This document shows positions 7,485-52,336 of a stretch of 64,000 nucleotides of DNA, one piece after another. The notes beneath the pieces were generated by a model. The model worked only from the letters and a program-made list of their open reading frames with translations. It was not told the DNA's origin and searched no databases. The stretch is from Acinetobacter equi (GTDB taxonomy: Bacteria; Pseudomonadota; Gammaproteobacteria; Pseudomonadales; Moraxellaceae), in assembly GCF_001307195.1 (NCBI RefSeq), contig NZ_CP012808.1:1240001-1304000 (forward strand). The letters run 5' to 3'. Positions within the stretch are counted from its first letter, which is position 1. Each line of letters starts with the position of its first letter. Position numbers and translations under genes: made by a program.

Positions 7485-7881
7485 AGAAATCCTATTAATT
7501 TCCCTTATTCGATTAATAATAAGGGGATAAGAAAATTGATTTAATGTGGGGAGTTTATACTATTTAGTACTAATTTTTAAGACAAGATATTATTTAAAAT
7601 CTGACTAGTAAAAGATATATGTAAGATGAATTAGTGATCATTTAAATTAATATAAAACAATTATTTACATTGACATATTTTGAATTAATTGTAAGAGCTT
7701 ATGTTTTAATTGTTAAGAATGTTTCTAAATATATGATTTTATTGTATTTAAAATATATAATACAATAAGTGTATTCCTAAAAGTTTCTAAATTAATAAAA
7801 ATGATAAATTAGATTTATGTGATATCAGGGTTATAATCGAATAAATAGAGAATTACACCCAGTCCAGTGGAGCAAATCGAC
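7485..7881. other. Gene-free divergent region between thyA and leuC
   Basis: About 400 bp of very A/T-rich DNA holding the leaders of the divergent thyA and leuC genes. I see a stem CCCTTATT/AATAAGGG (7502-7525) in the thyA leader and a TATAAT at 7756-7761 on the leuC side with a poor -35. A TTGACA at 7670-7675 lacks a convincing -10. I looked for a leucine-rich leader peptide or an attenuator ahead of leuC and saw none. Confidence 0.5.
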
Positions 7882-9315
7882 ATGGCAGGCGAAACCCAAA
7901 AAGCAAAAACATTATATGATAAATTATGGGATGACCATTTAGTAAAACAACGAGATGATGGTTCAGCTTTACTTTATATCGATCGTCATTTATTGCATGA
8001 AGTGACATCACCACAAGCATTTGAAGGTTTACAACTTGCTGGTCGTAAACCATGGCGCTTAAGTGCAAACGTTGCAACACCAGATCATAACGTACCAACA
8101 TCAACAAAAGAACGTTCAGAGGGTATTTCTGGAATTGAAGATTCAACATCTCGAATTCAGGTTCAAACTTTAGATGATAACTGTAAAACATTTAATGTCG
8201 TTCAGTTCGATATTAACGATGTACGTCAAGGTATTGCACATGTAGTTGGCCCTGAACAAGGTTTAACCTTACCTGGTATGACAGTAGTATGTGGAGATTC
8301 TCATACTGCAACACATGGTGCATTTGGTTGTTTGGCACATGGTATTGGTACATCTGAAGTTGAACATGTATTGGCAACTCAATGTTTAGTACAAAAGAAA
8401 ATGAAAAACATGTTGGTACGTGTTGACGGTAAATTAGGTCAAGGCGTAACACCAAAAGATGTTGTATTAGCAATCATTGGTAAAATTGGTACTGCTGGTG
8501 GTACTGGTCATGCAATTGAGTTCGGTGGTCAGGTATTCCGTGATATGTCTATTGAAGGTCGTATGACGGTATGTAATATGGCAATTGAAGGCGGTGCGCG
8601 TGTCGGCATGGTCGCTGTAGATGATAAAACCATTGAATATGTAAAAAATCGTCCATATGCACCGAAAGGTGAGCAGTGGGATCATGCGGTTGAATATTGG
8701 AATACTTTGCATTCTGATGAAGGTGCTCACTTTGATACGGTTGTTGTATTACAAGGTGAAGAGATTGAGCCACAAGTGTCTTGGGGCACATCTCCTGAGA
8801 TGGTGATTCCAGTTTCACAAGCTGTACCAACATTAGAACAAGCAAAAGATGATGTTCAACGTAATGATTGGACACGTGCATATCAATATATGGGCTTGGA
8901 AGCAGGTCAAGCATTGGCTGATATTCAATTAGATCGTGTTTTTATTGGTTCTTGTACAAACTCTCGTATTGAAGATATTCGTGCTGCAGCTGAAGTTGCG
9001 AAAGGCAAAAAAGTTGCAAACTCTATTAAGCAAGCGATGGTTGTTCCGGGTTCTGGCTTAGTTAAAGCGCAAGCAGAAGCTGAAGGCTTAGATAAAATTT
9101 TAATTGAAGCAGGTTTTGAATGGCGTGAACCAGGTTGTTCAATGTGTTTGGCAATGAATGCCGATAAATTACAACCAGGTGAGCATTGTGCATCAACTTC
9201 AAACCGTAACTTCGAAGGTCGTCAAGGTAATGGCGGTCGTACTCACTTAGTGAGCCCAGCAATGGCAGCAGCAGCAGCGATTGCAGGTCATTTCGTTGAT
9301 GTACGTTCATTCTAA
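7882..9315 (+). CDS. leuC: 3-isopropylmalate dehydratase large subunit
   Basis: Large, [4Fe-4S]-bearing subunit of isopropylmalate isomerase, the second step of leucine synthesis; it works with LeuD. I start at the ATG ([19 protein letters not shown]) because GGAGC lies 9 bases upstream; a GTG 15 bases earlier is less likely. Cluster cysteines are in [14 protein letters not shown] and [11 protein letters not shown], and [12 protein letters not shown] is the substrate loop. Length about 477 residues, normal for the family. leuD follows 14 bases after the stop, so the two subunits are surely co-expressed. Confidence 0.97.
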
Positions 9316-9329
9316 TAGGAGCAAACAAC

Positions 9330-9980
9330 ATGAAAAAATATACCGTTGAACAAGGTATCGTTGCACCATTAGACCGTGCCAATGTCGATACAGATTTGAT
9401 CATTCCAAAACAGTTTTTGAAATCAATTAAACGCACAGGTTTTGGTGAAAATTTATTTGATGAGTTACGTTATTTGGATGAAGGTTTTTTAGGTCAAGAT
9501 AATTCTAAACGCCCTAAAAACCCAGATTTTGCTTTAAACCAAAAACGTTACCAAGGTGCATCAATCTTGATTTCACGTGCTAACTTTGGTTGTGGTTCAA
9601 GTCGTGAACATGCGCCGTGGGCATTGGAAGAGTATGGTTTCCGTACTGTTATTGCGCCAAGTTATGCAGATATTTTCTTTAATAACAGCTTTAAAAATGG
9701 CATGTTACCTGTGATCTTGTCTGAAGAGATTGTAGATCAGTTATTTAAAGAATGCTTTGCAACGGAAGGTTATCAATTAACAATTGACTTAGAAGCACAA
9801 GAAGTTCGTACGCCATCTGGTGAAAGTTTTAAATTTGAAGTTGATCCATTTCGTAAGCACTGCTTGTTAAATGGTTTAGATGATATTGGCTTAACTTTAC
9901 AAGCTGCGGATGATATTCGTGCTTATGAAGAAAAAACGAAACAATCAAGACCTTGGGTATTTAGTGAAATTAAAGGCTAA
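9330..9980 (+). CDS. leuD: 3-isopropylmalate dehydratase small subunit
   Basis: Small (swivelling-domain) subunit of isopropylmalate isomerase. The 216-residue protein has [16 protein letters not shown] near the start, the conserved [20 protein letters not shown] loop, and [15 protein letters not shown] precedes the ATG. It is coupled to leuC and followed on the same strand by a lipoprotein gene and leuB, so the leu operon appears interrupted by one unrelated gene. Confidence 0.97.
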
Positions 9981-10077
9981 TTTCTAGAAAATTTAGTCGT
10001 AGATAAGCATCTAATCTCTTGATACTATCAAACATAATTATGGTGATAGCTTTAGGGATTTAAGGTTGGGCCTCTGC

Positions 10078-10653
10078 ATGACTAAATCTATAGGAATACT
10101 TGGGGTTTTTAGTTTGATTGTACTCATGCTGGTAGGCTGCCAAGCTTGGGATACTGTTCGAATTAAAAATATTAAAGAAACTGAAAGCATGAAAAAAAAT
10201 GCATTGGTTTTTTGCGAGGGAACTGAAGTTTGTGAATTTGAACGTCTAGATACAATTAACATTGTTGATGAAAATAGATATCAAATTAGTGATGAAGCGA
10301 TTGAGCAAGGGCTGGTTCGTTTAAAAGGGACTTCACTGAAACATCCTAATGCATTGTATCTTTCAGTTTTGCCTCAACAGCATGAAGTTGTGATACGTTT
10401 TTATCCAATCTCAAAAAATAAGGCTGAAAAATTGGTGGTAATTCATCGGTTTGAGCCAAATAGAAATTATACCTTTAAGATGTATCGCAATCGTGGTACT
10501 GGGACTGGTTCATTATTAAATGTTTCAGCACCTGAACCATTATGTGTAGATTTGATTGAAGGTCAAAAAACCATACGTCGTTTTTGCAAACCTTATAATG
10601 TTCTTAACGGACTTGGAGAGTTTGCAGAAAAAAAAGTTAACAAACGTCAGTAG
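10078..10653 (+). CDS. Putative lipoprotein lying between leuD and leuB
   Basis: I do not recognise a family. Starting at the internal ATG (MTKSIGILGVFSLIVLMLVGC), the signal peptide ends in the lipobox LVGC, predicting a lipid-anchored protein of about 191 residues. The mature part has scattered cysteines (FCEGTEVCEF near the start; CVDLIEGQKTIRRFC near the end) that could form disulfides in the periplasm. It sits about 100 bases after leuD and about 28 bases before leuB, all on one strand, so it is likely transcribed with the leucine genes although nothing in it suggests a leucine-related role. Confidence 0.75.
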   Translation: MTKSIGILGVFSLIVLMLVGCQAWDTVRIKNIKETESMKKNALVFCEGTEVCEFERLDTINIVDENRYQISDEAIEQGLVRLKGTSLKHPNALYLSVLPQQHEVVIRFYPISKNKAEKLVVIHRFEPNRNYTFKMYRNRGTGTGSLLNVSAPEPLCVDLIEGQKTIRRFCKPYNVLNGLGEFAEKKVNKRQ

Positions 10654-45462: not shown

Positions 45463-46053
45463 ATGCAACCTTATATTTTAGTTTTGTATTACAGCAAATA
45501 TGGTTCAACAAAGGAAATGGCACATTTTATTGCCAATGGTGTTGAATCTACTGGAATGGCAGTCAAAATTCGTACTGTTCCAAATATTTCTACAGTGGTT
45601 AAACAGGCTGAAGCAAGTATTCCTGATGAGGGAGATATTTACTGTACATTGGATGATTTAGCTCATTGTTCTGGTTTGGCTCTAGGCTCGCCAACACGCT
45701 TTGGCAATATGGCATCGGAAATGAAATACTTTTTAGATCAAACCACAAGTTTATGGCTGAGTGGAGCATTGCATAATAAACCAGCTTGTATATTTACTTC
45801 ATCAGGTTCTATGCATGGAGGTCAAGAGAGTACATTGCTTACGATGCTACCACCTTTATTTCATCATGGGATGATGATTATGGGGTTGACGAATGCGACA
45901 CCTGCACTATCAAATACAAAAACAGGTGGAACACCTTATGGTGCTAGTCATGTGAGCGGTGCGAGACATGATCAAACAATTAGTCAAGATGAACGTACTT
46001 TGTGTGAAGAGCAAGGTAAAAGATTGGCTGAGGTTGCATTAAAATTATTATAA
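45463..46053 (+). CDS. wrbA: NAD(P)H:quinone oxidoreductase, WrbA family
   Basis: A 196-residue flavodoxin-fold protein reducing quinones with two electrons. The N-terminal phosphate-binding loop is YSKYGSTKEMAHFI; the flavin-binding middle is GSPTRFGNMASEMKYFLDQT, and FTSSGSMHGGQESTLLTML follows, all WrbA signatures. A strong terminator separates it from the convergent glycan-related genes. Confidence 0.93.
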   Translation: MQPYILVLYYSKYGSTKEMAHFIANGVESTGMAVKIRTVPNISTVVKQAEASIPDEGDIYCTLDDLAHCSGLALGSPTRFGNMASEMKYFLDQTTSLWLSGALHNKPACIFTSSGSMHGGQESTLLTMLPPLFHHGMMIMGLTNATPALSNTKTGGTPYGASHVSGARHDQTISQDERTLCEEQGKRLAEVALKLL

Positions 46054-46056
46054 AAA

Positions 46057-46099
46057 AAAGAGGTTAATACTATATTTAAGTAGTATTAATCTCTTTTTT
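46057..46099. terminator. Long bidirectional terminator
   Basis: AAAGAGGTTAATACTA pairs with TAGTATTAATCTCTTT (one G-U) with an 8-base loop, then TTTT. It closes wrbA (plus) and the membrane-protein gene (minus). Confidence 0.85.
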
Positions 46100-46111
46100 C
46101 TTATTTGAAAT

Positions 46112-47311
46112 TTAATTTAAGAAATTTAATTTTTTTTGAGTATCAATCGGAAGATTTTTACTTGAGAGTCCGCCGCTATTTACTTTGTGGATATGAGGAT
46201 AAAGATTAATGACGCCCAAGGGACCTAGAAATAGAGATAATGTACAATAAATAATAATATTTTTTCTATATTTTATTAAATTATCTCGTAATTGAGAGTT
46301 ACTGATTAGTTTTTTATTAATCAGATAAGTAAATAAGATAAAAAAATTAAAAAGAAATAAGCTGATCCATCGAAAGTAGTCATATGCAATTAGACTGAGT
46401 GCTAATGGTGACATTGTAAAAATAAAATAATATAAGTAAGAAGTTTTACTTATTGATATTGTTATTAACCTAATTACTGGATAAATAATGATAAGACTTA
46501 GAATAATAGGGATGAAGGTTTTTCTTTCAATGAGTGAATGCCAATTCATTAAAAGATTCTCATATAAACTGAGAGAAGTTGTTCTAAATGCAAACTCATT
46601 ATATCCACGGTACTCTTCATAAGTTGAAATAAGTTTTTCTAAGTGTAGTGTGTTTATTTTTCCAAAATGTGAAATAAGTGTAATTGAAATAATTGATAAT
46701 GCTAGGAAAACAATAATAGGAATTATTTTTTTATATTCTAAATAGTAGATGGATAAAATGAGAGGTAGGAATATAATTATTCCTGCTTCATGTGTTATTG
46801 TTATAAGTGGAATGATTAGTAAAATGTATAAGCTAGATATAATATAGCTTTTTATTTTTATTAAAATGAAAAGAAATAGTAGTGTTAATATTTGGAATAT
46901 TTGATCAAACCTTCCTGCCTCTAAAATAAATTCAGATAATGTAAAAGAACAAAAGAAAAAACAACTAATATATAGGATTATATTTTTTTTACTTAAATTA
47001 GTTTTTTTTAGAATATTAAGAATTAATATGTATAGAAGGTAATAGAGTATAAGAACAATAGAAAAAGAGATGGAGCGAATACTATTATAGTTTTTATTTA
47101 AATTTAATTGATTGAAAATTTCACCAATGAAACCCCGTTGCATAAATCCATATTCATAACTAAATAGCCATGTACTATACATATAGGGGTCAAGGGTTAG
47201 ACTAAAGTCAAGACTATAAACTCTACTATGAATAAATAGAACAATAGTTAAGATTAAAAATGGAGTAAATAAATAAAGTTGGATTTTTTCATTTTTAAAA
47301 AGCTGTAACAT
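46112..47311 (-). CDS. Large polytopic membrane protein, candidate GT-C glycosyltransferase
   Basis: A 399-residue protein dominated by Ile/Leu/Phe-rich helices (ten or more predicted). The first loop after helix 1 carries acidic DPYMYSTWLFSYEYGF followed by MQRGFIGEIF. An acidic residue in the first periplasmic loop is the usual catalytic feature of GT-C enzymes that use lipid-phosphate sugars. I recognise no named family. It is the last gene of a minus-strand set with a PAP2-like and a UbiA-like gene, so it may transfer the pentofuranose that this locus seems to make. It looks even more A/T-rich than its neighbours, suggesting a horizontal origin. Confidence 0.65.
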   Translation of the reverse strand: MLQLFKNEKIQLYLFTPFLILTIVLFIHSRVYSLDFSLTLDPYMYSTWLFSYEYGFMQRGFIGEIFNQLNLNKNYNSIRSISFSIVLILYYLLYILILNILKKTNLSKKNIILYISCFFFCSFTLSEFILEAGRFDQIFQILTLLFLFILIKIKSYIISSLYILLIIPLITITHEAGIIIFLPLILSIYYLEYKKIIPIIVFLALSIISITLISHFGKINTLHLEKLISTYEEYRGYNEFAFRTTSLSLYENLLMNWHSLIERKTFIPIILSLIIIYPVIRLITISISKTSYLYYFIFTMSPLALSLIAYDYFRWISLFLFNFFILFTYLINKKLISNSQLRDNLIKYRKNIIIYCTLSLFLGPLGVINLYPHIHKVNSGGLSSKNLPIDTQKKLNFLN

Positions 47312-47314
47312 AAC

Positions 47315-47755
47315 TTAAATCCAACACTTCATTGTTGAAACGATGTATAGTAAATAAGCCACACATATGCCTATAATAATTCCACCTAAAATTTCTAAAC
47401 GAGTGTGCCCCATACGTTCACGCAAATTTGGTTTTATAATTAAATTCTCACTTAAGGTATTAATAGCTTTGGCATGTTTTCCAACTTGTTGTCTAAGACT
47501 GTTTGCATCTAAAAGTACAATAAAAGATAGAGTCAAAGCGACACCAAAAGCAGGTGTATTTAAGCCTTCTTTAAATGCAATAAGTGCTGTAGTACTACTG
47601 ACAATCGCACTATGATTGCTTGGCATTCCACCATAACCGACAAGTCCAAATGCTAGTTTTTTAGCCTTTATACTATTAATAAAAAACTTTAAGCAACCTG
47701 CGCTTAGCCATGCACAAAATGGTGTGATTAAATAAATAAAATAATTTAATTGCAT
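47315..47755 (-). CDS. Divergent PAP2 family phosphatase (DUF212/YuiD-like)
   Basis: About 146 residues from MQLNYFIYLITPFCAWLSAG, chosen because the longer frame overlaps the UbiA-like gene and adds an odd tail. Phosphatase motifs are GYGGMPSNHSAIVSS and LDANSLRQQVGKHA, the divergent PAP2 signature, within four membrane helices. By analogy to Mycobacterium Rv3807c it may dephosphorylate polyprenyl-phosphoryl-5-phosphoribose. It lies between the UbiA-like and GT-C-like genes with gaps of about 11 and 3 bases, so one operon is likely. Confidence 0.85.
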   Translation of the reverse strand: MQLNYFIYLITPFCAWLSAGCLKFFINSIKAKKLAFGLVGYGGMPSNHSAIVSSTTALIAFKEGLNTPAFGVALTLSFIVLLDANSLRQQVGKHAKAINTLSENLIIKPNLRERMGHTRLEILGGIIIGICVAYLLYIVSTMKCWI

Positions 47756-47766
47756 TCTATATATCT

Positions 47767-48648
47767 TCAAATAGATGGTAATAGTGACCATATACAGCAT
47801 GTAATCCATGCTGTAACTGTGAGAAGAATTTGCCAATCTTGTATTATTACATCTGTTGGCGATTCACCTTCTTCTAGTGTTTCTACAATGAACCAATATC
47901 GATATAAACCAAACATGACAAATGGAATGGTCATAATTAATTGAGGTTGAACATCCATTACATAAAGACTATAAAAGACAATAGAAGTAACAGCTGACAT
48001 TTCGGCAAAGCGATTAATTAAAGAAATGGAATAGTGAGCTAATACACCTCGTCCTAAAGAACCATTATTGATTAATTCTTGGCGACGCTTAATTGATGCT
48101 AAGTAAAGTGAGATACTTAGAGTTGTAACAAACATCCAGTTAGATACAGGTACCGCTAAAACAACAGCCCCTGCATAAACTCTTAAAACAAAACCAAATG
48201 CAACAACAAATATTTCAATGACAGGTTCATGTTTGAGCTTAAATGTATATGCCCAGTTTAAGGTTAAATATATTGTAATGACATAAATTAAATTTGGTTC
48301 ATAAAACCATACACTTGCAAGTATTAAATAAATAATAATAAGTAAAGTAATTGCACTTTTTGTTGAAACATTACCTGATGCTAAAGGTCGTTTAAAACAT
48401 TTTTCTGGATGTGCTTTATCTTTTTCAATATCTTTTAAATCATTAACAATATATACAGCTGATGCTGCTAGACAAAATATTAATGCAGCAAAAATAGTAG
48501 ATTCAATTGAATTTAAATTTAGAAATAAACCAGAAAATATTAATGGAGCAAATACAAAACTATTTTTAACCCATTGTTTTGGGCGAATGAGTTTTAACAG
48601 ACCTTTAATTTCTACTAGGATGGATTTCTTTACTGTTATATTATACAT
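47767..48648 (-). CDS. UbiA-family polyprenyl-phosphate phosphoribosyltransferase
   Basis: A 293-residue UbiA-superfamily prenyltransferase resembling Mycobacterium Rv3806c (decaprenyl-phosphate phosphoribosyltransferase), which couples PRPP to a polyprenyl phosphate. KLIRPKQWVKNSFVFAPLIF near the start matches the RP-x-QWVKN signature of that group rather than quinone-type UbiA. The first Asp-rich motif is NDLKDIEKDKAHP; eight to nine helices follow. Gene pair downstream: PAP2-like phosphatase and a GT-C-like protein. It is divergent from gtrA by only 30 bases. Confidence 0.88.
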   Translation of the reverse strand: MYNITVKKSILVEIKGLLKLIRPKQWVKNSFVFAPLIFSGLFLNLNSIESTIFAALIFCLAASAVYIVNDLKDIEKDKAHPEKCFKRPLASGNVSTKSAITLLIIIYLILASVWFYEPNLIYVITIYLTLNWAYTFKLKHEPVIEIFVVAFGFVLRVYAGAVVLAVPVSNWMFVTTLSISLYLASIKRRQELINNGSLGRGVLAHYSISLINRFAEMSAVTSIVFYSLYVMDVQPQLIMTIPFVMFGLYRYWFIVETLEEGESPTDVIIQDWQILLTVTAWITCCIWSLLPSI

Positions 48649-48678
48649 GGTAACTCAGAAGAAGAATCTTTTTGAAAA

Positions 48679-49083
48679 ATGATAAATGTTTTTAAACTAA
48701 CAACGCTATACTTTTGTTTTGCATTGATAGCAACAATATTGAATATATTAGCACAACAAATAATGGTGTATGTTTATTGGGGTAAATTTCAAATATTAAT
48801 TTCATTAATATTCGGCACTATTGTTGGGTTATTAGTAAAGTATTTTTTGGATAAGAAATATATATTTAAATATAAGGTTTTTAGTTTTAATGATGATGCT
48901 AGATTATTTGCTTTATATTCATTAATGGGCGTTTTTACAACATTTATTTTTTGGGGGTTTGAATTTTTATTTTATTATATGTTTGAAAATAGAAGCATGC
49001 GTTATATTGGAGCTGTTATAGGTTTATTTATTGGTTATATTATTAAATACTTTCTAGATAAAAAGTATGTTTTTAGGATCTAG
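48679..49083 (+). CDS. GtrA family membrane protein (candidate lipid-sugar flippase)
   Basis: A 134-residue protein with four membrane helices and two copies of the GtrA ending motif: YFLDKKYIFKY (about 56-66) and YFLDKKYVFRI at the C-terminus. The Mycobacterium equivalent Rv3789 sits beside dprE1-dprE2 and is linked to polyprenyl-phospho-arabinose export. It ends just 4 bases before the DprE1-like gene. No strong ribosome site is visible. Confidence 0.9.
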   Translation: MINVFKLTTLYFCFALIATILNILAQQIMVYVYWGKFQILISLIFGTIVGLLVKYFLDKKYIFKYKVFSFNDDARLFALYSLMGVFTTFIFWGFEFLFYYMFENRSMRYIGAVIGLFIGYIIKYFLDKKYVFRI

Positions 49084-49087
49084 TAAA

Positions 49088-50388
49088 ATGAAGAAAATTA
49101 AATCATGGGGTCGATTATCTAATAATAATCATTTAATTTTTAATATAAAAAACATCACTAATATTCAATGTGAAATTAAAAATAATTTACCCGGAATTAT
49201 GCATGGTTTAGGTCGTAGTTATGGTGATGTGGCTTTAAATAGTGGTGGTTGTTTATGGATGGGAAACCAACTCAATCATTTTATTTCATTTGATAAAGAT
49301 TTAGGTGTTTTATATTGTGAGGCCGGCTCATCCTTACAAGATATACATCGTACTTTAGTACCACAAGGTTGGATGCTTCCGGTTACACCTGGAACTCAGG
49401 TTATTACAGTGGGTGGAGCTATAGCGAATGATGTTCATGGTAAAAATCATCATGTTTTAGGTTCTTTTGGAGATCATGTTTTAGAATTTACTTTGTTAAA
49501 AACAACGGGTGAGATTTTTCAATGCTCTAGAACAAATCATTCAGAACTATTTTTTGCCACAATTGGTGGTATTGGTTTAACAGGAATTATTTTGACAGCA
49601 AAAATACAATTAAGAGCTGTTCAAGGACCTTGGCTAGAAGCTGAAACGGTTCCATATTATGATTTAAATGAGTTTTTTGAACTAGCTGATTCTTCTGAAA
49701 AAAAATGGGAGCATACGGTTTCTTGGATTGATTGTATGAATGGTAAGCAGGCACGTGGATTATTTATGCGTGCAAATTTATGTGATGCAAAAGAATCTAT
49801 TCAAGAGTCGGTCATCAAAGATAAGATTTTCCCTATTGCTCCGCCTATTTCATTGGTAAATCATTTAAGTCTGCCACTATTTAATTTTGCTTATTTTCAT
49901 AAAAATCGTTTAAGCCATCATCATAAGATTGTTCATTATGAGCCTTTTTTTATCCTTTAGATGCGATACATGAGTGGAATAAAATGTATGGACCTAAGGG
50001 TTTTTATCAGTATCAAAGTGTTATACCGAGACATTTAGGATTTGATGCAACTCAAGAAATGTTAAAAGTGATTAAAAAGTCAGGTGAGGGGTCTTTTTTA
50101 GCTGTATTAAAAACATTTGGCGATAGAGAGTCAGGAGGATTATTAAGTTTTCCTCAGCCAGGAGTAACACTCGCTTTAGATTTTCCAAATCGGGGTCTAA
50201 AAACAGAAAAGTTATTTAATGCGCTTGATGCGATTGTCCGCGAGGCACAAGGACGACTGTATTTGGCAAAAGATGCTCGAATGCCAAGATCATTATTTGA
50301 AGCAGGTTATCCGAAATTTAATGAATTTTTAAAATATAAAGATCCAAATATCAGTTCAGACATGTCGAGACGACTATTAGGTGTATAA
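49088..50388 (+). pseudogene. dprE1: DprE1-like FAD oxidase, frame broken in a T7 run
   Basis: Decaprenylphosphoryl-ribose 2'-oxidase family; oxidises the polyprenyl-phospho-ribose in the first half of an epimerisation. Residues 1-about 290 (MKKIKSWGRLS to HYEPFF) contain the FAD loop GLGRSYGDVALNSGG and DVHGKNHHVLGSFGDHV. A one-base deletion in T7 (49945-49951) then produces a stop. Adding one T gives PFFYPLDAIHEWNKMYGPKG, and the frame runs on to the end (about 433 residues). The rest (GEGSFLAVLKTFGDR, AQGRLYLAKDARMP) matches the DprE1 C-terminus. DprE2-like gene starts immediately after. Confidence 0.88.
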
Positions 50389-51144
50389 ATGTTAAATAAA
50401 CAAAAAATTTTAATTATCGGTGGAACATCTGCAATTGCTGAGCAATGTGCGAGACAATGGCTATCTCAAGGAATGATTGATGCGATTCTAGTTGGTCGTA
50501 ATCAAGAAAAATTAGAAAGGATTGTAAATGATTTAAGAGTGAGATTTCCTCAAAGTAAGATCGATTTTCAGTTGGTAGATTTTCTATCCATTTCATCTAT
50601 TCAAGAATGTATTAATAACGCATATTTAGATTCGCCAATCGATATTGCTTTAATCGCACATGGAACATTACCTGATCAAATTTTGTGTGAAAACAAAATG
50701 AAAGACTTGAAACAAGCTATTGAAATTAATGCATTTTCTCCAGTGGTTTTTGCAGAATCGATTTTAAATAAAATGATTCAATTGGATTCTGGAAAACTTG
50801 CTGTGATTGGGTCTGTAGCTGGAGATCGTGGTCGGAAATCAAACTATGTTTATGGTGCATCAAAAGCTTTTATTGATAGATATGTAGAAGGTATGCAACA
50901 TCGCTTAGCTTTGATCAAGTCATCTGTGAGCGTGACATTAATTAAACCAGGACCAACAGCAACACCGATGACAGAAGAGATTTCAGGGAAAGGAAAATTT
51001 GCAAGTCCTGAACAAGTTGCAAAAGAAATAGTAAAAGGAGTTTTAAAAGCTAAAAGAACAATTTATACACCTAAAAAATGGGCAATAATTATGTTTGTTA
51101 TACGACATTTACCTTTCTTTTTATTTAAAAAAATGGATATATAG
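50389..51144 (+). CDS. dprE2: Short-chain reductase, DprE2-like
   Basis: A 251-residue NAD(P)H-dependent SDR. In Mycobacterium DprE2 reduces the keto intermediate made by DprE1 to give polyprenyl-phospho-arabinose. The cofactor loop is IIGGTSAIAEQCARQW, the catalytic motif is NYVYGASKAF (Tyr-x3-Lys) and IKPGPTATPMT follows. The start codon lies directly after the DprE1-like stop, so the pair is translationally coupled. Terminator downstream. Confidence 0.85.
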   Translation: MLNKQKILIIGGTSAIAEQCARQWLSQGMIDAILVGRNQEKLERIVNDLRVRFPQSKIDFQLVDFLSISSIQECINNAYLDSPIDIALIAHGTLPDQILCENKMKDLKQAIEINAFSPVVFAESILNKMIQLDSGKLAVIGSVAGDRGRKSNYVYGASKAFIDRYVEGMQHRLALIKSSVSVTLIKPGPTATPMTEEISGKGKFASPEQVAKEIVKGVLKAKRTIYTPKKWAIIMFVIRHLPFFLFKKMDI

Positions 51145-51171
51145 TTGTAGATGGTAAAATAGATTAATTTT

Positions 51172-51198
51172 AAAAGAGGTTGTGTAACCTCTTTTATT
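51172..51198. terminator. Bidirectional terminator after the dprE2-like gene
   Basis: AAAAGAGGTT, GTGT, AACCTCTTTT: 10-bp stem with A and T flanks. Separates the dprE2-like gene from a convergent small gene. Confidence 0.85.
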
Positions 51199-51595
51199 TG
51201 CAATGAATTTCTTTAAACTTACATTGGCATTGCTTGCATTTAAAATCTAAAAAAATATTTTTATCAATAATAACACCTGCTTTTTTTCCATAAATATTAC
51301 CTAAAATACCACCTGTAATACCGATGCCAATAGCGCCAACAAATGTTCCAACAGCACCACCAACGATAATGCCTAATGGACCTGCAACAGTAGTTTCGAT
51401 TGCAGCACCAATGGATGCTCCAGAAGCTGCACCACTAACACTACCAGCTGTGGCACCTGCTGAAGACATTAAAATTCCACCAATTTTTTTTAGTTGTTTA
51501 TCATGATCACGTTGTTCAATATCTGTTGAACCACACTTAGGGCATATGATGATAGGTTGTATAATGATTTTTATAAATGGCTGAATCGTTAACAT
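51194..51595 (-). CDS. Zinc-ribbon / glycine-zipper small protein
   Basis: A 133-residue protein of unusual layout. It has a CPKCGS pair near residue 19 and a CKQCQC pair near 121-126 (a split four-Cys zinc site), with about 80 residues of Gly/Ala-rich membrane-like sequence between (SSAGATAGSVSGAASGASIG, GIGITGGILGNIYG). The Gly zipper suggests a helical hairpin in a membrane. I recognise no family. Single gene, its end overlapping the terminator of the glycan locus. Confidence 0.65.
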   Translation of the reverse strand: MLTIQPFIKIIIQPIIICPKCGSTDIEQRDHDKQLKKIGGILMSSAGATAGSVSGAASGASIGAAIETTVAGPLGIIVGGAVGTFVGAIGIGITGGILGNIYGKKAGVIIDKNIFLDFKCKQCQCKFKEIHCK

Positions 51596-51661
51596 TGTAG
51601 CGAAGATTAGGGGTGTTTGAGTATGGTAGATTTATATTGTTATCACTCGAATAGTAAAATA

Positions 51662-51693
51662 AAAATGCCTGAATTTTATTCAGGCATTTTTAT
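51662..51693 (-). terminator. Terminator of xpt
   Basis: On the minus strand AAAATGCCTGA, loop, TCAGGCATTTTT: strong stem plus T-run, directly after xpt. Confidence 0.85.
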
Positions 51694-51715
51694 TAAGAAA
51701 ATTTTATTTAAATAA

Positions 51716-52336
<621 letters not shown>

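Follow-up and report, generated by a model that had tools for sequence, protein, structure and literature searches.

Our analysis concerns a stretch of 64,000 nucleotides of Acinetobacter equi (the window; contig NZ_CP012808.1, positions 1,240,001 to 1,304,000), and within it a module of six genes at 46112-51144 that probably provides a lipid-linked pentofuranose and a transferase to use it. The module consists of two divergent groups of adjacent genes in the list of open reading frames (ORFs) of the window (Table 1). The minus-strand group encodes a UbiA-type protein, a DUF212 divergent PAP2 phosphatase and a large polytopic protein that we call GTC; the plus-strand group encodes a GtrA-family protein, a DprE1-like oxidase split over two frames and a DprE2-like reductase. 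These are the genes named by the initial annotation, all of them present and adjacent within that interval. They are not a chance grouping, because the same six genes occur in identical order in nine other Acinetobacter genomes. Seen directly in the sequences are the gene order, the enzyme families, the conserved residues and the joint presence of GTC and the donor genes in genomes of the genus.

The module is bordered by wrbA on the left and by a small glycine-rich gene on the right, and its G+C content is 29.6%, against 34.5% for the window. The start codons of the two groups are only 30 bases apart, the corresponding ORF coordinates give 19-28 bp in five relatives (L032, L033, L038, L039 and L041), and in L040 the ORF calls overlap at the junction. 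Promoters for the two groups would thus have to be placed within the opposing gene or beyond the ends of the module; a promoter scan was uninformative (26 sites, versus 33.9 in shuffled sequence).

Table 1. Features of the module and its borders, in window coordinates.
Feature	Position	Strand	Evidence and remarks
wrbA-type NAD(P)H:quinone oxidoreductase	45463..46053	+	NCBIfam TIGR01755, 156.9 bits, above cut-off; left border, also in L038
GTC, polytopic, 399 residues; proposed periplasmic pentofuranosyltransferase of an undescribed family	46112..47311	-	no family match
DUF212 divergent PAP2 phosphatase	47315..47755	-	PF02681, 115.7 bits; ORF reaches 47836 with a TTG start
UbiA-type polyprenyl-phosphate phosphoribosyltransferase (putative)	47767..48648	-	PDB 8j8j, E 6.3e-40; NF008977, 213 bits
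Gap between divergent start codons, 30 bp	48649..48678	.	ORF coordinates
GtrA-family small membrane protein, proposed flippase	48679..49083	+	PF04138, 29.2 bits; NF037976, 163 bits
DprE1-like oxidase, part 1; likely start 49088	49067..49960	+	NF053785, 207 bits; PDB DprE1, E 4.6e-39
Run of seven T, loss of the DprE1 frame	49945..49951	+	sequence
DprE1-like oxidase, part 2, other frame	49984..50388	+	NF053785 positions 315-447; PDB DprE1, E 9.5e-21
DprE2-like reductase of the short-chain dehydrogenase/reductase (SDR) type	50389..51144	+	PDB DprE2 21gq_C, E 6e-24; next family, 3.7e-14
Small glycine-rich gene, persists at the site without the module	51194..51595	-	sole wrbA-xpt gene in L240, no module there
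xpt-like phosphoribosyltransferase, right border of the variable site	51716..52333	-	present in 164/175 genus genomes

Donor enzymes and a broken oxidase gene

Sequence comparisons give good support to a donor pathway for a lipid-linked pentofuranose of the Rv3806c/DprE1/DprE2 kind, as first proposed for this DNA, because the best solved relatives of the module proteins are those very enzymes. The UbiA-type protein carries the RPKQWVKN signature and matches just two PDB sequences at E <= 0.001, both decaprenyl-phosphate phosphoribosyltransferases (8j8j, and 8j8k at 2.2e-32), with the 8j8j alignment spanning residues 14-283. Among NCBIfam models, those for phosphoribosyltransferases score 213, 200 and 154 bits and the general UbiA-family model 174. 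The NDxxDxxxD motif, whose role we presume, aligns with the same residues of 8j8j, and N69, D70, D73 and D77 are invariant in nine genus copies. A quinone-type UbiA was rejected, since ubiA_proteo scores 30 bits against 213 for the phosphoribosyltransferase model. The DUF212 protein is far above its cut-off of 26.5 bits, and its PSNHSA and RER-GH motifs are invariant in 10 aligned copies. The GtrA protein passes the cut-offs of both PF04138 (26.1 bits) and the NCBIfam model gtrA_1 (50 bits). A PF04138 search of the window genome listed another GtrA, at 302384, and missed that of the module, which we take as a loss in this first look, the protein scan being above cut-off. The reductase has DprE2 as its closest solved relative and keeps S142, Y155 and K159 invariant in 8 aligned copies. 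A generic SDR or lactone oxidase was rejected because the best solved relatives are DprE1 and DprE2, even though PRK07102, an unnamed SDR model, scores higher than the DprE2 model. The result said beforehand to speak against the pathway, best matches to quinone-type UbiA proteins and generic oxidases, did not occur.

The DprE1-like oxidase is a mixed case: its family identity stands, since both pieces match DprE1, and yet it is not one open gene here. The pieces score 207 and 107 bits against a model whose cut-off, 500 bits, is meant for the whole protein, and the first frame ends soon after the seven-T run at 49945. In all nine related Acinetobacter modules DprE1 is a single intact frame of 432-447 residues, and the stretch matching the T run, located in six of the ten relatives tried, is not a pure T run in those six. 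The two entries nearest to the window DprE1 in the protein collection show that both allele types exist in near-identical sequence: P0041 (on a contig of 1672 bp) has 290 residues, stops at the same point and has a single residue changed relative to the window, while P0042 (5697 bp) is intact at 433 residues, with one difference before the break and none in the 134 residues after it. The break may reflect loss, slippage or a repeated homopolymer error. As counted in the printed alignment to solved DprE1, the positions of K367 and K418 are lysine, the latter with a role in DprE1 that we assume, and the position of C387 is alanine. Cys387 of the mycobacterial enzyme is, we take it, the target of benzothiazinones, so that covalent inhibitors of this type would not be expected to act, if their chemistry is as we assume. 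Given the broken frame, D-arabinose formation in this strain is doubtful and probably lost or low, and the pathway is probably impaired at epimerisation.

Relatives of the module and of GTC

The initial annotation also proposed to look for the locus in relatives. A UbiA search of 175 genus genomes matched 103 at E <= 0.001, of which 11 were above 300 bits and the others listed at or below 29; one of the 11, G130, has two copies above 300 bits. We read 20 kb around the UbiA copies of the ten other genomes and around the second copy of G130. The six-gene divergent module is present in 10 of the 175 genomes: in the window, and with all six genes in the same order in ANC 4558, A. dispersus, NIPH 2100, A. 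vivianii, ANC 3929, two A. rudis, G130 and G149. A UbiA tree of 33 chosen rows, with a long-branch warning for L065, L073 and L191, places the window, the nine others and two Commensalibacter rows in one group (100/100), and two pilin-linked Acinetobacter copies in a separate one (100/100).

GTC has no match in the copies of Pfam-A, NCBIfam and PDB that we used; the protein collection gives PF27463 for some of its members, a family that our Pfam copy did not report. Because the first PDB search matched the Sel1/TPR-type repeats of longer copies, it was repeated without them and gave two chance-level matches. A C-terminal Sel1 tail is found in seven of the ten genus copies, and an 18-row alignment shows F50, Y52, R59, G60, G63, D136, H174, E175, P183, R314, N322 and G363 to be invariant. 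A GTC profile matches 172 of the 175 genomes, and among the matches listed, which reach down to near E 2e-18, the membrane core is covered only in the ten module genomes, the others falling mainly on the Sel1-tail part. A control with a tail-free model matched 9 of 128 genus genomes, all of them module genomes, G149 being outside this sample. GTC thus co-occurs with UbiA in ten of ten cases within the eleven UbiA genomes, and it is likely, if unproven, that it is a transferase of an undescribed family. Outside the genus, GTC relatives lie less than 10 kb from DprE1/DprE2 in L222 and L227. As a separate observation, L223 carries at 7572-10385 a GTC-superfamily gene directly after a weak AftB-like relative (45 bits); judged by eye, the two are part of a possible glycan cluster.

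In a scan of 84,980 species genomes, 80 of 131 loci were kept. The first 23 listed (L043-L065) include eight Acinetobacter already counted in the genus; DprE1 and DprE2 occur together in 19 of the 23, and DprE1 is seen in one more, on a short contig. DUF212 is present in 20 and a close GtrA in 15, and three loci (L050, L051 and L063) show no DprE genes. In the remaining 57 loci, DprE1 matches of more than 100 bits were seen in three. Marinobacter, Thiomicrorhabdus and a Comamonadaceae keep the same divergent order with another polytopic gene in the position of GTC, and in L055 this position is held by a PMT-type protein (PF13231, above cut-off). The Commensalibacter loci L050 and L051 (Acetobacteraceae) encode a UbiA 70-73% identical to that of the window, L050 also having GtrA and DUF212, and DprE1 and DprE2 were seen in neither. 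The position of these UbiA proteins inside the tree group of the Acinetobacter modules suggests a transfer between classes and a ribose-type system. Comamonas koreensis likewise has UbiA and DUF212 without DprE1/DprE2. An order-wide sample of 390 genomes gave 77 matches, many of them to a fused protein of about 480 residues, and nine loci of the unfused type were read. In Paraperlucidibaca baekdonensis, an independent operon combines DprE1 and DprE2 with a HAD phosphatase, a GTC homologue of 23% identity, UbiA and a flippase-like protein of the LPG_synthase_TM family.

Proposed role and competing explanations

Our results suggest that the locus is a probable variant of the three-component pentofuranose systems, with a probable transferase of an undescribed family. 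As judged from sequence, it is likely a self-contained module of donor enzymes and transferase that decorates a periplasmic target with a pentofuranose, by design D-arabinofuranose. UbiA, a putative phosphoribosyltransferase, would make polyprenyl-phospho-ribose-5-phosphate from phosphoribosyl pyrophosphate, and the DUF212 phosphatase would remove its 5'-phosphate. DprE1 and DprE2 would oxidise and then re-reduce C2 to convert ribose into arabinose, GtrA would flip the lipid-sugar outward, and GTC would pass the sugar on to an acceptor, probably one other than the type IV pilin. Inferred in this scheme are the identity of the sugar and of its acceptor, the outward direction of transport and the role of GTC as transferase.

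This arrangement works like systems that have already been described, but it has another phosphatase, other candidates for flippase and transferase, and a different genomic setting. Three-component pentofuranose systems are described with DprE1/DprE2 homologues named for the arabinofuranose (Araf)-containing cases (PMC11127046); the window has the synthase and a GtrA flippase candidate, and the third component would be GTC, as a putative transferase. The Citrobacter youngae O1/O2 system (GT136; PMC11127046) has in common with the module a polyprenyl phosphoribose synthase, dephosphorylation, an optional epimerase, a flippase and a proposed periplasmic polytopic protein. The module differs in that its phosphatase is a DUF212 protein of its own where that system has a fused HAD domain; GtrA takes the place of a MATE protein, DprE1/DprE2 that of the ORF13 epimerase, and GTC, distinguished by description, that of GT136. 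The Pseudomonas paraeruginosa PA7 cluster PSPA7_6245-6251 makes D-Araf away from the pilin locus, with TfpW lying with pilA (PMC12369383). By this description it shares with the window a donor cluster remote from pilin genes, whereas the window genome has no TfpW-like match and has a different polytopic gene inside the module. In the mycobacterial decaprenyl-phospho-arabinose pathway (Rv3806c, Rv3807c, DprE1, DprE2, Rv3789) the first enzyme and the epimerase enzymes are homologous to those of the module. There the differences are a DUF212 protein in the place of Rv3807c (by description), the alanine at the Cys387 position, the absence of any Emb/Aft family match for GTC in Pfam and NCBIfam, and a lipid that is presumably undecaprenyl. 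The word Acinetobacter is absent from the main text of PMC11127046. The open-access literature searched, supplements excluded, gave no title on a DprE1/DprE2 locus in Acinetobacter, and the titles listed for DprE1 with Acinetobacter were drug, resistance or mycobacterial papers.

Several results weigh against this reading. None of UbiA, DprE1 and DprE2 reaches its NCBI equivalog cut-off: the best UbiA score stays below the curated 234 bits, and the DprE2 model gives the reductase 161 bits (cut-off 250), less than the 233 bits it obtains with PRK07102 (cut-off 267). A full-length DprE1 is missing from the window, where the frame is broken in spite of the conserved Lys418 and Lys367 positions. 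GTC has no match to any known glycosyltransferase in Pfam, NCBIfam or PDB; its profile comparison with the TfpW-like proteins described below is not significant (probability 17.6, E 0.0014), and that with the AftB-like alignment gives no match. The co-occurrence of GTC and UbiA has a probability of 1.9e-15 under independence, which overstates the case because the module genomes are related and do not represent ten independent events. Finally, only three of the 13 GTC-superfamily loci read outside the genus (out of 20 matches outside the window genome, some stretches ending at contig ends) have DprE1/DprE2, and the superfamily is thus not tied to arabinose.

A competing explanation is that the module arabinosylates the type IV pilin, as in P. 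aeruginosa group IV, with GTC replacing TfpW. In A. venetianus RAG-1 (L041/L061) the five donor genes keep their divergent order without GTC and lie beside two type IV pilins, a 629-residue polytopic TfpW-like protein, a TfpX/TfpZ accessory protein (NF041437, 222.7 bits, above cut-off) and a PglL-type ligase; its UbiA belongs to the separate tree group, and the label TfpW-like comes from context and the TfpX/TfpZ neighbour, not from comparison with TfpW itself. A Kangiella and L193 likewise have UbiA, DprE1 and DprE2 with a pilin and a TfpW-like protein alongside. The weak profile match of GTC to the TfpW-like family pairs GRFD and an x-E motif, and where most genus GTC copies end in Sel1 repeats that family has weak, sub-cut-off TPR matches. 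Yet none of the nine related 20-kb module loci has a pilin match. The one PF00114 pilin of the window genome (genome positions 1150269-1150574) is 135 kb from the module, next to a PglL_A match at 1151475 and with no TfpW-like neighbour, so that no counterpart was seen there of the TfpW-type transferase that marks the pilin locus of P. aeruginosa group IV. The TfpW-like family was found in two of the 11 UbiA genomes, G130 and A. venetianus; at E 1e-5, nine of the ten module genomes, the window genome included and several of them drafts, have no match. One Acinetobacter genome, G130 (L034, L042), combines the GTC module with a second UbiA that is pilin-linked. Next to this second UbiA are pilins, a protein related to the 629-residue one and a polytopic AftB-like protein of 544 residues, which matches the terminal arabinofuranosyltransferase model NF041481 (E 1.1e-14) at 53.5 bits, far below the cut-off of 1050. 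That G130 has both systems argues for separate jobs of GTC and the TfpW-like proteins. Distance alone does not exclude a pilin target, given that the P. paraeruginosa donor cluster, as described, also lies away from the pilin locus. Overall, we regard a pilin target, which the initial annotation had named as one option, as quite unlikely. The acceptor is probably another molecule, and by eye we saw no O-antigen cluster among the ORFs of the window.

The broken oxidase raises two further explanations. In this strain and in the modules lacking DprE, the polyprenyl-phospho-ribose left behind might itself be flipped and used, so that the sugar would be ribofuranose. This would fit the break at the same place in P0041, a second allele with one residue different, the DprE-less sets of Commensalibacter and Comamonas koreensis, and a transferase reported to accept both ribofuranose and xylofuranose (PMC11127046). 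We think it unlikely, because the near-identical P0042 is intact and the break may be recent or a homopolymer assembly artefact. Alternatively, the module may be decaying in this lineage and inactive here: DprE1 is broken, and the module sits at a variable site (wrbA-xpt gaps of 63-5785 bp in 99 genomes) and is present in few genomes of the genus. But the other five genes are open, UbiA and DprE2 retain the residues invariant in their alignments, and there is a single break, of which an intact counterpart exists. Decay is accordingly somewhat unlikely. A different doubt concerns GTC, which might be a polymerase, a ligase or a transport partner of the pathway. It has no sequence link to any named glycosyltransferase family, ten of the 13 outside relatives read are in stretches without DprE genes, and its conserved R, D, H and E are compatible with other chemistry. 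However, a PMT-type protein holds the same position in L055, the donor genes in Kangiella (L065) adjoin a gene whose product groups with the AftB-like protein of G130, and GTC has its weak motif match to the TfpW-like family; a role other than glycosyltransferase is thus unlikely too.

The locus extends to a minority of Acinetobacter species a donor pathway for D-arabinofuranose that is known above all as a target of antituberculosis drugs. It also points to two uses of this pathway within one genus, one pilin-linked with a TfpW-like protein and the other with a family for which the libraries we used have no description. The five donor genes resemble a portable unit whose transferase can be exchanged, and the polytopic genes neighbouring it elsewhere are therefore testable candidates for new glycosyltransferase families. 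A bolder version, in which GTC founds a new family of periplasmic pentofuranosyltransferases acting on a surface molecule of Acinetobacter other than pilin, and in which the T run of DprE1 slips and so switches the decoration between D-arabinofuranose and D-ribofuranose, seems to us very unlikely.

The variable site around the module

The interval between wrbA and the gene that we take to be xpt (window 45463-52333; L228-L241) is a variable site of the genus, with small gene sets that differ between genomes and in which curli-like, lipoprotein, thioesterase or ABC-type genes were recognised by eye. We located wrbA in 169 of the 175 genomes, and the 99 genomes in which it is paired with xpt on one contig have a median gap of 1736 bp. 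Only two gaps exceed 5 kb, those of the window and of G149, and both contain the module; no module gene was found in the fourteen other gaps read. Around the modules of the rudis and dispersus groups, wrbA and xpt are absent within 20 kb, which suggests that the module moved as a unit. At the left end of the window, at 3-1611, we noted by eye an inner membrane protein of type II secretion-like character together with a GspG-like pseudopilin, distinct from the PF00114 pilin discussed above.

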